Below, piece after piece: positions 55,466 through 60,627 of a stretch of 64,000 bases of DNA. Position numbers and translations under genes: made by a program. The notes below the pieces were generated by a model. It saw only the letters and a program-made list of their open reading frames with translations, was not told where the DNA came from and ran no database searches. Each line of letters starts with the position of its first letter. The stretch's first letter is position 1. Source of the stretch: Planctomyces sp. SH-PL62 (GTDB lineage: Bacteria > Planctomycetota > Planctomycetia > Isosphaerales > Isosphaeraceae); assembly GCF_001610895.1 (NCBI RefSeq), contig NZ_CP011273.1:1674001-1738000 (forward strand). The letters run 5' to 3'.

Positions 55466-55587
55466 CGTCGATGATCCCCTAATTGTCGTCGCGGTTCGAC
55501 CCGATCGGGAGTGGACTCCCTGCGGAGTAAGGTGCAGGATAGTGGGCCTCGAAGTCGAAGGCAAGCGTACCGCGAGGATTGATCCCG

Positions 55588-56709
55588 ATGGCCGAGTTCT
55601 CCGCATCCAAACCCGTCCGCGTGGGCTTCATCGGCCTCGGAGCCGTGACCGCGTACCACCACCTGCCGGGCCTGCTCCTGGACCCCCGAGCCAGGCTGAC
55701 GGCGATCTGCGACGCCGACCCCGCCCTCCTTGAGAAGCGCAAGGTCGAATGGGGGGTGGACCGCGCGACGACCGATCCGCTGGCCCTCTGCCGCGACGAC
55801 GCCGTCGACGCCGTGATCATCGCCACCCCCAACGACACCCACCGGCCGATCGCCGTCGCCGCCGCCGAGGCCGGCAAGCACGTCATGGCCGAGAAGCCGC
55901 TGGGCCTCAACGCCCGCGAGGTCGGCGACATGTACGAGGCCGCACGCGACGCGGGCGTCGTCCACATGACGGCCTTCACCTATCGCTTCGCCCCGGCCAT
56001 GCGCTACTTGCGAACCCTGGTGAAGTCCGGCGCGATCGGCGAGCCCCGCCACTTCCGCTCCCAACGGTTCCTCGACTGGCCCGAGACGAGCTGGGGATGG
56101 CGGCAGTACAAGGAACGCGCGGGGGCCGGCGACCTGTTCGACATGACCATCCACCGCATCGACTTCGCCATCGACCTGATCGGCCCGATCCAACGGGTCT
56201 GCGGCGCCGTCGCCCGCTTCGCCCCCCGCGACAGGACCGTCGACGGCAAGCCCTGCGAGCCCTCGAACGTCGACGACTGGTCGTCGCTCATCGGCGAGTT
56301 CGCATCGGGCGCGACCGGCGTCTGGGAGGGGACGACGCTCGCCAAGGGCTACCATCGCGACGGCTTCGGCCACGAGTGGGCCGAGATCAACGGCTCCGAG
56401 GCCTCGGTGGTCTACCGCCTCCACGAGCCCAACGTCATCCTCCTGGGCAAGACCGGCAGCGACCTCGCCCCCGTCCCCGTCCCGGACGAGTTCCTCAAGC
56501 CCGCCGGCAGCCCGCGCGACCCCGCCGACGGCGCCCCGGCCACCGTTTTCCGCTACGACCTGATGTGGGAGTTCATCTCCGCCATCGTCGAAGGCCGCCC
56601 CGCCGTCCCCGACTTCCGCGACGGCCTCAACGCCCAGATCGTCGCCGACGCCGTCCTCGACTCCCACCGCCGCCGCGCCTGGGTCGACACCCCCACCGCG
56701 ACGGCGTAA
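55588..56709 (+). CDS. Gfo/Idh/MocA family oxidoreductase
   Basis: 373 aa from ATG 55588 (the in-frame TTG at 55579 is closer to GAGG but adds three residues). NAD fold VGFIGLGAVTAYHHLPG, canonical EAGKHVMAEKPLGLNAREV with EKP, then FRSQRFLD and a substrate domain with DMTIHRIDFAIDLIG. Probably oxidises or reduces a sugar or inositol. Divergent from its paralog at 54335. The A+T-rich islet begins right after its stop. Confidence 0.92.
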   Translation: MAEFSASKPVRVGFIGLGAVTAYHHLPGLLLDPRARLTAICDADPALLEKRKVEWGVDRATTDPLALCRDDAVDAVIIATPNDTHRPIAVAAAEAGKHVMAEKPLGLNAREVGDMYEAARDAGVVHMTAFTYRFAPAMRYLRTLVKSGAIGEPRHFRSQRFLDWPETSWGWRQYKERAGAGDLFDMTIHRIDFAIDLIGPIQRVCGAVARFAPRDRTVDGKPCEPSNVDDWSSLIGEFASGATGVWEGTTLAKGYHRDGFGHEWAEINGSEASVVYRLHEPNVILLGKTGSDLAPVPVPDEFLKPAGSPRDPADGAPATVFRYDLMWEFISAIVEGRPAVPDFRDGLNAQIVADAVLDSHRRRAWVDTPTATA

Positions 56710-56841
56710 GGATATTCCAAGCGTAGTCACAACACCAAGCCTGCACAGAACGGAATCACACCATCCAAACAAGAACGCAATCACAGCCCAACCGTTGAAC
56801 TGCTCGAAATTCAAAACCAAAGCTGGGAGGACTCAATCAGA

Positions 56842-57795
56842 ATGCGAGACAACCAGGATCCACCAGACAATGAGAAGTTCCCGCGAGTTCAGTTTATCGA
56901 ATACTGGCACAGCTTGGCCCAGGAGATACTAGAGGCACGCGTCAAGTCGCGGTTGATACACGCGACAACTAATATTGACGCCTCTGGAGATGAGATCGAG
57001 GAGGCCGTCAGGTCTGCGATCAGGCGAAAATTGCCATTGAGATTTCATATTGGACATGGACATATCGTCGACAACAGAGGAAACGTAAGCCCTCAGTACG
57101 ACATAATTATCTCCGACAGAGACAGCCACCCAATTCTCTTCGAAACCCAGAATGGAACGACATATTATACTTACGAGTCAGTCTACGCGATCGGAGAAAT
57201 TAAATCCACATACTACAACGCAAAAAAGGAGATACAAAAATTCTGCGACAACATTCGCGGCATGAGATCAAGACTCTGGCGCCCTCGAGTGCCGTTCCAC
57301 GATTCGCTTTCGGGCGAACGACTTAAAGCGGCTACTCGGAATACCGTAGGAATAGGCTACTACGACGTCACGGCCTTTTACGGGAACCCGCTTTTCACCT
57401 TCATGTTTTTTGTGAATGCTAACGACTTCTCACCCAGTCAAGTCGCAAGCCTATACAACTTGACACCCTTGAGCGAGCTTCCCAATGTGGTCTGTCTTCT
57501 TAGCGAGGGATTGATACTAAATACATACTATTTTAAAAGAGATGACGGCACAGCACTTCCAGTACACATTAATAGTATTCCCGAGTTTATCAACACAGCG
57601 CCATCGCCTAACGTGGGATATGCATGGTTGCTCGCGAAAATCGGGAAGGCGCCACATCGAGCTGGAGGAAACTTATCAATGTTTATGCACAATCTATTCG
57701 CTCACCTTATCAGCTGCAAGCTTTCAAAACCAAATCTTACGCACTACACATTAAACACGATGCCCGACCACGAGTATGAAGGAATCAGCGATTAG
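56842..57795 (+). CDS. DUF6602-like, PD-(D/E)xK-type putative nuclease in an A+T-rich islet
   Basis: 317 aa. Pattern of the DUF6602 family: EIEEAVRSAIRRKLPLRFHI then GHGHIVDNRGNVSPQYDIII, SDRDSHPILF and YESVYAIGEIKS. The Asp of QYDIII (residue 87), Glu119 and Lys121 of GEIKS fit a PD-(D/E)xK nuclease core; this is inference from the pattern. Composition is unlike all neighbours: 22 of 60 bases in 57181-57240 are G or C, and AGA, ATA and TTA codons are used. GGAGG lies 9-10 bases before ATG 56842. The islet spans about 56710-57800, between an oxidoreductase and a two-component operon, with no transposase. Probably acquired laterally; defence role possible but unproven. Confidence 0.75.
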   Translation: MRDNQDPPDNEKFPRVQFIEYWHSLAQEILEARVKSRLIHATTNIDASGDEIEEAVRSAIRRKLPLRFHIGHGHIVDNRGNVSPQYDIIISDRDSHPILFETQNGTTYYTYESVYAIGEIKSTYYNAKKEIQKFCDNIRGMRSRLWRPRVPFHDSLSGERLKAATRNTVGIGYYDVTAFYGNPLFTFMFFVNANDFSPSQVASLYNLTPLSELPNVVCLLSEGLILNTYYFKRDDGTALPVHINSIPEFINTAPSPNVGYAWLLAKIGKAPHRAGGNLSMFMHNLFAHLISCKLSKPNLTHYTLNTMPDHEYEGISD

Positions 57796-57809
57796 TTCAT
57801 CGCGATTCA

Positions 57810-59255
57810 ATGATGAACGGTTCCATACGTCGCCAGATCCTGATCCCGATCGTCGCGATCCAGACGGCCTCGATTGCCGCGATCACGGCGGCGGCGGTCG
57901 GGCTGGCGGCGTGGCGGAGCGAGCGGCAGAGCGTGGCGCGGTTGGCGGGGGTGATCGAGGTGCTGGAGCGGTCGACGTTCCCACTGAGTTCCCAGGTTCT
58001 GGCGCGGATGCACGGGCTTTCGGAGGCCCATTTCGTCGTCCAGGACGCGAGCGGGAGGCCGGTCGCGTCCAGCGAGGAAGAACTGGCCCGGCGCGCGCCC
58101 GACGGCCGCGCCGTCTCGGAGTTTCGGCCCAATTCGCGGTCGTGGCGGCAGTGGCCGACGCTCTCGCTCTCCGGCCGGACGTACTACGCGGCGAAGCTTC
58201 CCGCCGCCGCGTCGAGCGCCGGGCCGGGCGCGACGCTCCTGGTCCTCTATCCCGAATCGAGCTGGCGGGCCGCCCTCTGGGACGTCGCCGCCGCGCCGAT
58301 CGCGCTGGGGCTCGCCGCAATCGCGCTCACGGCGCAGGCGACCCGCTGGTTCGCCGATCGGATCGGCCGCCGGGTGAATCGCCTTCGCGGACAGGTCGCG
58401 CGGATCGCCGACGGCGATTTCCAGGAGATCGAGCCGGGTGAGGGGCGGGACGAGGTCGGCGACCTGATCCAGTCGGTCAACCAGATGAGCCGGCAGCTCC
58501 GCGACATGCGGCGCACCATCGCCCAGGCCGAGCGCACGCAGCTCCTCGCGCAGCTCGCGGCCGGCTTCGCGCACCAGCTTCGCAACACGCTCACCGGCGC
58601 CCGGCTCGGCGTCCAGCTCCACGCCAAACGCTGCGGCGCGTCGGTGAGCGACTCCAGCTTGAAGGTCGCCGTGAGGCAGCTCGAACTGGCCGAGGAGCAG
58701 GTGCGCGGGCTTTTGACGCTGGGGCGTCTCGAACAGCGGCCCGACCGCCCCTGCGATCTGGTCGCCTTGCTTCGCGACGTGGCGTCGCTCCTCGACGCCA
58801 CGAGCCGACACGCCAGGGTAAGCCTCGACCTGCGGACGCCCGACGCCCCGGTGGTCGCCAGGCTCGACGAGCCGAGCCTCCGCGCGGCGGTGCTGAATCT
58901 GACCTGGAACGCACTCGAAGCGGCCGGGCCGGGGGGCCGGGTGCGGTTCCAGTTGATTGCGGACGCGGATCCGATCATGATCGAGGTCGGCGACGACGGC
59001 CCCGGCCCGCCCCCCGAACTCGGAGCGGCGATCTTCGACCCGTTCGTGACGGGCAAGCCCGAGGGCGTGGGCCTCGGCCTGGCCCTGGCGCGACGGGTGG
59101 CCGAGTCGCATCGCGGCGGCCTGGCCTGGCGTCGCGAGGACGGCTGGACGTGGTTCCGGCTGACCCTGCCGCGCGGCGTCGCGGAGGCCGAGACCGAGCC
59201 CGAAGCCGAGACGGAGACGGACCCCGCCCATGAGCCGCGTCCTGATCGTGGATGA
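57810..59255 (+). CDS. Membrane sensor histidine kinase with HAMP domain
   Basis: 481 aa from ATG 57810 (57813 also possible). Two membrane helices (LIPIVAIQTASIAAITAAAV near 11-30 and APIALGLAAIALTAQA near 162-177) flank a periplasmic sensor region; HAMP at about 178-230 (VNRLRGQVARIADGDFQEI). H-box Ala-Gly-Phe-Ala-His-Gln with His255, then HATPase: LNLTWNALEAA, GDDGPGPP, GVGLGLALARR. Starts 14 bases after the A+T-rich gene's stop, so its native promoter may have been replaced. Overlaps the regulator by 26 bases. Confidence 0.92.
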   Translation: MMNGSIRRQILIPIVAIQTASIAAITAAAVGLAAWRSERQSVARLAGVIEVLERSTFPLSSQVLARMHGLSEAHFVVQDASGRPVASSEEELARRAPDGRAVSEFRPNSRSWRQWPTLSLSGRTYYAAKLPAAASSAGPGATLLVLYPESSWRAALWDVAAAPIALGLAAIALTAQATRWFADRIGRRVNRLRGQVARIADGDFQEIEPGEGRDEVGDLIQSVNQMSRQLRDMRRTIAQAERTQLLAQLAAGFAHQLRNTLTGARLGVQLHAKRCGASVSDSSLKVAVRQLELAEEQVRGLLTLGRLEQRPDRPCDLVALLRDVASLLDATSRHARVSLDLRTPDAPVVARLDEPSLRAAVLNLTWNALEAAGPGGRVRFQLIADADPIMIEVGDDGPGPPPELGAAIFDPFVTGKPEGVGLGLALARRVAESHRGGLAWRREDGWTWFRLTLPRGVAEAETEPEAETETDPAHEPRPDRG

Positions 59256-60627
59256 CGAGGCCAGCATCTGCTGGGCGTTCGGCGAGTACCTGGGCGACCT
59301 CGGCCATGAGGTCGCCGTCGCCTCGACCGCCGAGGAGGGGCTCGAAGCCGCGCGCCAGGGTCCGTTCGACGCGGTGGTCCTCGACGTCCGCCTGCCGGGG
59401 CTGGACGGCCTCTCGGCGATGTCCGCGTTCCGCGACCGCCTGGGCGCGGCCCCCATCGTGATCATCACCGCCTTCGGCAGCCTGGATACCGCCGTCCGGG
59501 CGATGGAGGCCGGGGCGTTCGACTATCTCGTCAAGCCCTTCGATCTCGATCAGGCCGGCGCGGTCGTCCAGCGGGCGCTGGAGTCTGGCGGGGCCGCGAT
59601 CGGCGGGGCGAAGGGGGGCCACGTCGGACCCGGCCCCGGGCTGGTCGGCTCGTCGCCGCCGATGCAGGCCCTGTTCAAGCAGATCGCCCTGGTCGCCGCG
59701 ACCGACGTCCCGGTCCTCATCACCGGCGAGAGCGGCACGGGCAAGGAACTCGTCGCCCGCGCGATCCACCAGAACAGCCCGCGACGCTCCCGCACCTTCC
59801 TCCCCGTCTGCCTCGCCGCGCTCAGCCCGGGACTCGTCGAGGGCGAGCTGTTCGGCCACATGCGGGGCTCGTTCACCGGCGCGAGCCAGGACCGCAAGGG
59901 GCTGCTGGAGCTGGCCGCCGGCGGCACCGTGCTGCTGGACGAGATCGGCGACGTCCCGCTGGGCATGCAGGTCAAGCTCCTGCGGGCGATCGAGCACCGC
60001 GAGGTCGCCCCCGTCGGCGACGCCCGGCCGCGTCCCATCGACGTGCGTTTCCTCGCCGCCACCAACCGCCCGCTCCCCAGACTCATGGCCGACGGGTTGT
60101 TCCGCGAGGACCTGTTCTTCCGCCTCAGCGTCTTCCCCATCCACATCCCTCCCCTGCGGGATCGGCTCGGCGACGTCCCCGAACTGGCCAGATTCTTCCT
60201 GAAACAGGTCGACCCGCACCAGGACGGGGCCGCCGCCCTCCGGGACGACACGCTCGCCGAGTTGGTGCGGCGGCCCTGGGTGGGGAACGTCCGCGAGCTG
60301 CGAAACGCCATCGAGCGCGCGGCGATCGTCGCGAGGGGGGGGCCGATCCTCCCGGAGCACCTCCCCGCCGCCATCGCCTCGCCGGGACCCGACGGGGCCG
60401 GGGGCGACGGCCTCGACGCCTCCATCGCCCGCTGGACCGAGGCGGCCCTCGACGCCGCGCCCGACGAGTCGGACTCCCTCTACGACCGTTTCCTCGCCCA
60501 GGTCGAGCCCCCCATGCTCCGGGCCGTCCTCCGCCGCGAGTCGAACAACAAGGCCCTCGCCTCGCAGCGGATCGGGATCCATCGGTCCACGCTCCGCCAG
60601 AAGCTCCGCAAGTACGGACTGGAATGA
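59230..60627 (+). CDS. NtrC-type response regulator with GSFTGA in place of GAFTGA
   Basis: 465 aa. Receiver: DDE at 8-10, Asp52 phosphoacceptor in VVLDVRLPG, ITAFGS, VKPFD. AAA+: Walker [11 protein letters not shown] near 165-174, the sigma-54 contact loop GSFTGA at 213-218 in place of the usual GAFTGA, Walker B VLLDEIGDVP, and FLAATNRPLP. C-terminal Fis-like HTH (KALASQRIGIHRSTLRQKLR). Co-translated with the upstream kinase, and its stop overlaps the SGNH start (ATGA). Confidence 0.93.
   Translation: MSRVLIVDDEASICWAFGEYLGDLGHEVAVASTAEEGLEAARQGPFDAVVLDVRLPGLDGLSAMSAFRDRLGAAPIVIITAFGSLDTAVRAMEAGAFDYLVKPFDLDQAGAVVQRALESGGAAIGGAKGGHVGPGPGLVGSSPPMQALFKQIALVAATDVPVLITGESGTGKELVARAIHQNSPRRSRTFLPVCLAALSPGLVEGELFGHMRGSFTGASQDRKGLLELAAGGTVLLDEIGDVPLGMQVKLLRAIEHREVAPVGDARPRPIDVRFLAATNRPLPRLMADGLFREDLFFRLSVFPIHIPPLRDRLGDVPELARFFLKQVDPHQDGAAALRDDTLAELVRRPWVGNVRELRNAIERAAIVARGGPILPEHLPAAIASPGPDGAGGDGLDASIARWTEAALDAAPDESDSLYDRFLAQVEPPMLRAVLRRESNNKALASQRIGIHRSTLRQKLRKYGLE

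Follow-up and report, generated by a model that had tools for sequence, protein, structure and literature searches.

A solitary DUF6602 gene with a predicted NucC-type nuclease fold in an AT-rich islet of Planctomyces sp. SH-PL62

The locus

The window, which is the whole stretch of 64,000 nucleotides analysed here (contig NZ_CP011273.1, positions 1,674,001 to 1,738,000 of the forward strand), carries at 56842..57795 on the forward strand an intact frame of 317 amino acids with an ATG start. This frame, called the window gene below, encodes a DUF6602 protein that is predicted to be a PD-(D/E)xK nuclease of NucC fold. A ribosome-binding-like GGGAGGA (56825..56831, forward strand) was read by eye 10 bases 5' of the ATG. 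The gene lies in an AT-rich islet (56710..57809), recognised by G+C and by comparison with congeners, and the islet is set between two conserved genes of the forward strand, a GFO/IDH/MocA oxidoreductase on the left (55579..56709) and a histidine kinase on the right (57810..59255), the right-hand operon also containing a sigma-54 response regulator (59230..60627, forward strand). Gene calls were simple longest-ORF picks. The families of the flanking genes confirm the place given in the initial annotation, between an oxidoreductase and a two-component operon, and no transposase or toxin-antitoxin gene adjoins the window gene, in agreement with its description there as solitary.

The window gene has a G+C of 0.471 (47.1%), about 9 standard deviations below the mean of the 1216 other 954-bp segments of the 64 kb (mean 0.694, sd 0.024, minimum 0.618), so that the A+T-rich islet described earlier is confirmed as an observation. 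The count of 22 G or C among the 60 bases of 57181-57240 was found as claimed, and the AGA, ATA and TTA codons that had been pointed out, present 6, 6 and 2 times, set the gene apart from three nearby genes, the corresponding counts being 0/0/0 in the oxidoreductase, 0/1/0 in the histidine kinase and 2/0/0 in the regulator. Promoter and terminator scans around the gene found no more than in shuffles, and the repeats around the islet were short pairs only, probably due to chance.

Domain, fold and catalytic residues

The Pfam profile DUF6602 (PF20247) matches residues 41-142 of the window protein (E 2.1e-25, 89.1 bits against a cut-off of 27), which bears out the family proposed earlier, and the window gene is the only DUF6602 match in its genome. 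In PADLOC, a CRISPR-associated PD_DExK profile matches the protein at 4.2e-23 and the NucC profiles match it at E 1.1e-18 and 2.3e-16. A PHROGs family of unknown function matches at 2.3e-5, and a search with the NCBIfam profiles gave no match to the protein. When the PDB was searched by sequence with E up to 10, five of the six entries listed were NucC, the best at 3.8e-10. No aligned homologue exceeds 29% identity over the full length.

An AlphaFold model built from 22 sequences reached a mean pLDDT of 73.7 and a pTM of 0.75, with low confidence in the stretches 160-180, 231-234, 237-269 and 310-317. All 14 Foldseek matches of this model at E <= 0.001 were NucC chains. VIA-align superposed the model, over its residues 12-308, on E. 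coli NucC with Z 22.9 and an rmsd of 3.7 for 237 residues, while the best fold other than NucC was the restriction enzyme BbvCI at Z 10.6, and the list of solved structures below NucC consists largely of restriction endonucleases. The predicted fold thus matches both NucC and restriction enzymes and supports the PD-(D/E)xK core that had been read from the pattern of residues. G49, E53, S83, Q85, D87, E119 and K121 do not vary across the 22 aligned rows, the window protein included. The codons of four of them, all on the forward strand, are those of the acidic residue E53 (56998..57000), of the candidate metal ligands D87 (57100..57102) and E119 (57196..57198), and of the candidate catalytic lysine K121 (57202..57204). 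The last three, which the initial annotation had already put forward as candidates, align with positions 73, 104 and 106 of NucC, which we take to be its catalytic residues. Since the model matches NucC, it follows that D87, E119 and K121 should cluster in space, and the superposition and the alignment with these three positions speak against a predicted structure in which they lie apart.

The nuclease reading of the initial annotation was partly supported: DUF6602 membership, the PD-(D/E)xK core, the three candidate residues, foreign composition, solitary place and patchy presence were all upheld, but the homology to NucC over almost the full length had been missed. Because of this homology the fold of the window protein is already known; DUF6602 moreover takes in NucC effectors with a cyclase or Cas10 alongside as well as genes of restriction-modification operons.

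Gate-region motif, ligand pocket and clade

The homologue list comprised 57 rows including the window protein, after L028 (the window gene itself), L024 (the same protein as L065) and L035, L041 and L042 (frame not recovered) had been left out. A motif [SA]-[VI]-R-x-L-x-R-T-S shortly after ExK is present in 10 of the 57 rows. The tree used 49 of them, leaving out L048, L049 and L050 (short, fused or weak) and L032, L043, L045, L047 and L080 (no motif anchor); in it the 10 motif rows form one clade with support 99/95 and the window protein falls outside, a position to be read with care, as its branch is long (2.26). At the motif place the window protein has G-M-R-S-R-L-W-R-P-R, with P-R instead of T-S. 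By alignment, the counterpart of the L-x-R-T-S gate-region motif of the NucC clade is L145-H153 (57274..57300, forward strand), and the L-x-R is kept. The rows nearest to the window protein in the tree are L051, L053, L056, L062, L068 and L074, with weak grouping (87/84) and 21-25% identity to it; A116, G118, E119 and K121 are invariant in 7 of 7 rows.

The pocket and the motif were compared in an alignment of 12 motif proteins, the window protein with seven near rows, and 12 others. On this alignment, on which the equivalences depend, R53 of NucC is kept as R67, while S95 stands for Y81 and K293 for T225/226. Of the NucC-clade rows (n = 12), 11 have Y where the window protein has S95, and all 12 have T where it has K293. 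In work ascribed to Lau et al. in 2020, R53, Y81, T226 and the gate loop of NucC are said to contact cA3. As given in an excerpt of PMC10419184, NucC trimers, once cAAA is bound in an allosteric pocket, join in pairs to form the hexamers that cleave DNA, and excerpts of PMC10952713 and PMC7854544 tie NucC to CBASS and type III CRISPR.

Presence among relatives and history of the junction

Of the 392 genomes sampled in the phylum, 30 have a match to the DUF6602 profile (29 above cut-off), and of 397 genomes of the class, 27 match the profile made for the window protein's group. Within the family, the protein search matched 2 of 45 genomes, namely the window's own and G001, which holds a broken start only; the group profile added a shortened DUF6602 piece in G014, a genome of another genus (L152, 3683-4057), with a 125-residue frame and a G+C of 0.51 against 0.63 around it. 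A weak match was seen in G098. Presence is thus patchy, with an intact gene in 1 of 45 family genomes.

The oxidoreductase and the kinase meet across the junction in five of the six genomes of the genus, and in G004 a different gene precedes the kinase. The spot is variable, because the spacer differs in each genus genome that holds the junction. It contains a DUF1559 gene in G002, a short ORF in G003, a Uma2 gene, which is a putative restriction endonuclease, in G005 (L020, 6811-7458; spacer G+C 0.648), and in G001 the AT-rich (0.474) start of a relative of the window gene, 43 residues at 50% identity. IS-like DNA cuts off this DUF6602 gene of G001 at the same junction (L016, 6071-7905); within it, a 155-residue ORF of unknown kind is enclosed by two copies of a 76-base sequence that are 82% alike, and an IS4/5-type transposase is spread over more than one frame. 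The other four of the five congeners gave no match to the window gene. On the comparison of relatives that the initial annotation had proposed, the same gene with the same composition at the same place was therefore not seen in all relatives, one congener holding a broken copy. An insertion into this genome only was considered and rejected, the AT-rich start of a relative lying at the same spot in G001.

Over 37 codons, the synonymous divergence between the window gene and the G001 fragment is 1.6 (resampled 0.65-3.4, with 111 of 500 resamples undefined), and that of the flanking genes is lower, at 0.26-0.47. The third-position identity of the fragment, 0.41, is not below that of the lowest of 242 flank windows (0.38), and for this reason synonymous divergence is not decisive between vertical descent and repeated insertion at the junction. 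The dN/dS over the same 37 codons is about 0.25, with a wide error (omega 0.10-0.79, 111 of 500 resamples undefined).

Among viral contigs, the single window protein found 0 matches and an alignment query found three relatives; relatives occur in 23 plasmid records, and none was found in phage records. The DUF6602 genes L070, L071 and L072 lie in contigs of a viral collection, and the neighbours of L071 and L072 are phage tail-like by eye. Two genomes of the phylum hold three (L086-L088, G250) and four (L114-L117, G236) DUF6602 matches each, most of the frames exceeding 370 residues.

Cyclase and Cas10 genes

Among 83 distinct DUF6602 ORFs with flanks, a count that left out L085 (on the same contig as L065), L110 and L113 (no DUF6602 hit) and the window gene, a cyclase-like gene or Cas10 lay within 3 kb of 11 of the 12 motif ORFs and of 0 of the 71 non-motif ORFs (Fisher p 7e-13, the rows being related). 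The three cyclase queries were taken from L058, L076 and L077, so that three of the 11 matches are of a query to itself. The query from L076 has a nucleotidyltransferase annotation but no Pfam family at 1e-5; it is the one query that matched at L076 and L081, where the cyclase is therefore putative. By Pfam, the neighbour of L058 is Cas10-like. The twelfth motif ORF, L083, has a short CdnC-like ORF nearby (E 6e-19) that fell under the 80-residue cut, and it was counted as a motif ORF without cyclase. Two non-motif genes have a gene of nucleotidyltransferase fold in their surroundings, RlaP one gene away from L144 and a Polbeta-type gene about 4 kb from L062.

A test with the SMODS profile, which does not share the self-match weakness of the cyclase queries, was run over 53 DUF6602-bearing genomes. 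It rang in all five genomes with motif genes (G158, G351, G380, G525 and G530), each time on the same contig as DUF6602, within 5 kb in four of them and at about 14.5 kb in G380. It also rang in 3 of the 48 remaining genomes (G322 weakly, G418 and G556), always on another contig; the division by motif in this test covers the genomes other than G488, G634, G734 and G014, the piece in the last being too short to tell.

In the window's genome there was no match to the SMODS profile (controls rang in 3 of 14 genomes), to Csm1 and Cmr2 (controls rang in 7 and 4 of 14 genomes), or in a CdnC-like search run without a positive control; a cyclase unlike those behind these profiles and queries may have escaped detection. 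There is no CD-NTase gene beside the window gene, whose neighbours are the oxidoreductase and the two-component operon. A nuclease acting on its own, as the initial annotation had suggested, fits the missing cyclase.

Two arrangements at motif genes were seen apart from these counts. On a linear Rhodococcus plasmid (L075, 664-9046), SIR2, CdnC-like, ThiF, Mov34/JAB and NucC-motif genes follow one another, an arrangement suggestive of CBASS in which NucC is the effector. In a Defluviitaleaceae bin (L058, 7941-16203), a NucC-motif gene lies directly 5' of the Cas10-like gene, with further genes that look by eye like CRISPR type III.

Restriction genes and other neighbours

Restriction-modification genes were found at or near at least eight of the 71 non-motif ORFs. 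The partner counts are lower bounds and refer to the 25 commonest of 117 Pfam families. The neighbour families were drawn from 79 proteins, namely 74 of the 98 listed flanking ORFs and five next-but-one genes, with none from L134-L151. The order in L061 is HsdM-HsdS-DUF6602-HsdR, and likewise in L054, where HsdM was named by eye; in both, the DUF6602 gene lies within 14 bases of, or overlaps, hsdS and hsdR. Furthermore, the DUF6602 gene of L066 adjoins HsdS and that of L105 is one gene from HsdR, while Eco57I/MmeI-type enzymes lie beside L065, L136 and L148 and at one gene's distance from L115. The restriction count does not include L092, which matched the type IIG query weakly. SNF2/helicase genes adjoin L104 and L108, an nSTAND NTPase adjoins L107, and three neighbours in the neighbour-family count have nSTAND_NTPase5.

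Most of the 71 non-motif ORFs have neighbours that were not recognised as defence genes. L060 follows argininosuccinate synthase, L109 precedes a prolyl oligopeptidase and L094 follows a dehydrogenase E1 gene. Around the six nearest rows, the cyclase and restriction queries gave no match in the flanks covered, those of L051 and L053 being cut short on one side by the end of the contig. A Hypoth_Ymh gene that matches PD-Lambda-3_B of PADLOC comes next after L051, an integrase after L056 and an IS1595 transposase after L062, and a SIR2-TIR gene lies about 5 kb from L062; L053 stands between a piece of RecG and arginyl-tRNA synthetase, which is not a defence island. No restriction gene lies beside the window gene, and no HsdM-like gene stood out in its genome, where one weak N6_Mtase match reached 28.6 bits.

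Three further loci were noted for their gene order. L134 (7152-8893) holds a tandem pair of DUF6602 genes, the second of which has Q-V-K for the usual E-x-K; judged by these residues, its protein may be an inactive partner. In L136 (1-8274), an Eco57I/MmeI-type enzyme, a DUF6602 gene, an unknown gene and a helicase follow in a row that may be an undescribed restriction-type system. In L108 (3051-12150), an SNF2-type helicase, a DUF6602 gene and the gene of a 1798-residue protein are closely packed in one direction.

Interpretation

The best explanation, which we put forward tentatively, is that the window gene encodes a horizontally spread, single-gene defence nuclease that has the NucC fold and is not switched by cA3. 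The foreign composition, the patchy presence, the NucC fold over nearly the full length and the intact conserved catalytic residues were computed, as was the absence of the RTS motif and of two pocket residues, and no cyclase was detected beside the gene or in the genome; the activity, trigger and role of the protein are what we infer. The product would be a NucC-fold PD-(D/E)xK double-strand DNA endonuclease whose gene would spread horizontally and singly, and it would guard the cell against phages or other invading DNA with no partner gene alongside. It would probably assemble as NucC does, from trimer to hexamer, and cut DNA with D87, E119 and K121. The nuclease would be silent until infection and would then be released by a trigger other than cA3, which could be another ligand, a phage protein or the invading DNA itself; the benefit to the host would be defence. 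Also in favour are the joint occurrence of the motif with a cyclase-like gene or Cas10 and the defence genes near some relatives, namely restriction, SNF2/helicase and nSTAND genes, the SIR2-TIR gene near L062 and the PD-Lambda-3_B match after L051. On the other side stand the weak grouping with the six nearest rows, the long branch of the window protein, its low identity to homologues, the low-confidence stretches of the model, the nucleotidyltransferase-fold genes near L144 and L062, the surroundings of L053 and of most of the 71 non-motif ORFs, and the decay of the copies in G001 and G014.

The chief rival, in our view unlikely, is that the protein is the accessory nuclease of a restriction-modification system, orphaned by staying behind or being carried along without its partners. 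The relatives between HsdS and HsdR (L054, L061), beside HsdS (L066) and near HsdR (L105), those by Eco57I/MmeI-type enzymes (L065, L136, L148, and one gene off in L115) and the restriction endonucleases that largely make up the solved-structure list below NucC all point that way. However, the genome has no evident HsdM-like gene beyond the single N6_Mtase match of 28.6 bits, no restriction gene lies beside the window gene, and restriction queries had no match at the six nearest rows. The gene could also be transient cargo of a phage or other element without present function, as would accord with its foreign composition, the broken copy at the same place in G001, the shortened piece in G014 and the relatives in three viral contigs and 23 plasmid records; yet the 317-codon frame is intact, all conserved catalytic residues are present and the dN/dS against the G001 fragment is about 0.25 (37 codons, wide error, omega 0.10-0.79), and we hold this to be quite unlikely.

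Decidedly unlikely, by our estimate, is that the protein is nonetheless a NucC effector gated by cA3, the messenger coming from a divergent cyclase of the genome or from a cyclase of an invader or other element. The RTS motif and the equivalents of Y81 and T225/226 are absent, SMODS, CdnC-like, Csm1 and Cmr2 searches had no match in the genome, and no cyclase query matched within 3 kb of any of the 71 non-motif ORFs, but the PADLOC NucC profiles do match (E 1.1e-18, 2.3e-16), the whole fold is that of NucC, and the protein retains R67, the R53 equivalent, as well as L-x-R in the gate region. That it is a nuclease of housekeeping or repair with no part in defence is scarcely probable at all, because the presence is too patchy, with the profile in 30 of 392 phylum genomes and an intact gene in 1 of 45 family genomes. 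The ordinary neighbours at L053, L060, L109 and L094 are in its favour, and we know of no conserved DUF6602 copy with a knock-out repair phenotype.

Beyond the single-gene defence nuclease proposed for this locus, a wider reading, possible but doubtful, is that the NucC fold has a large cyclase-free side, consisting of self-sensing single-gene immune nucleases, the window protein being one example, and that CBASS and type III CRISPR would have recruited one branch of it. Such a nuclease would carry its own sensor, its gate and three-fold pocket being remodelled for another ligand or the invading DNA being recognised directly, so that no CD-NTase or Cas10 would be needed. Solitary DUF6602 genes can be counted as parts of CBASS or CRISPR despite having neither motif nor cyclase, because the NucC profiles of PADLOC match a protein such as that of the window; the short motif after ExK separated the cyclase-neighboured ORFs from the rest among the 83 ORFs. 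If the solitary form works alone, it would be a one-gene defence, and finding its switch would show how NucC came under second-messenger control. A search of an open-access literature collection for DUF6602 or PF20247 found no paper, and the excerpts of PMC10952713, PMC7854544 and PMC8682760 describe no solitary form of NucC.

Comparison with known systems

The window protein resembles NucC (PDB 6p7p, 6q1h, 7zgv) in its predicted fold over residues 12-308 (Z 22.9, 18% identity), in the D, E and K at the catalytic positions and in the R53 equivalent. It differs from NucC in the lack of the RTS gate-region motif and of the Y81 and T225/226 equivalents, in having no cyclase alongside and none found in its genome, in its place outside the NucC clade, and in its greater length, with a low-confidence insert near 231-269. 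The DUF6602 genes of type I restriction operons (L054, L061) share the Pfam domain and the conserved catalytic residues, but they are situated between hsdS and hsdR, whereas no hsd gene lies beside the window gene. The nearest-row DUF6602 genes are likewise free of cyclase or restriction query matches around them, but their identity to the window protein is 21-25%, their grouping with it is weak, and L051, L056 and L062 are followed by Hypoth_Ymh, integrase and transposase genes, respectively. Uma2 (PF05685), a putative restriction endonuclease family, is of PD-(D/E)xK type too and occupies the same intergenic spot in the congener G005, but it belongs to another family than the window gene, and the spacer there has a G+C of 0.648.
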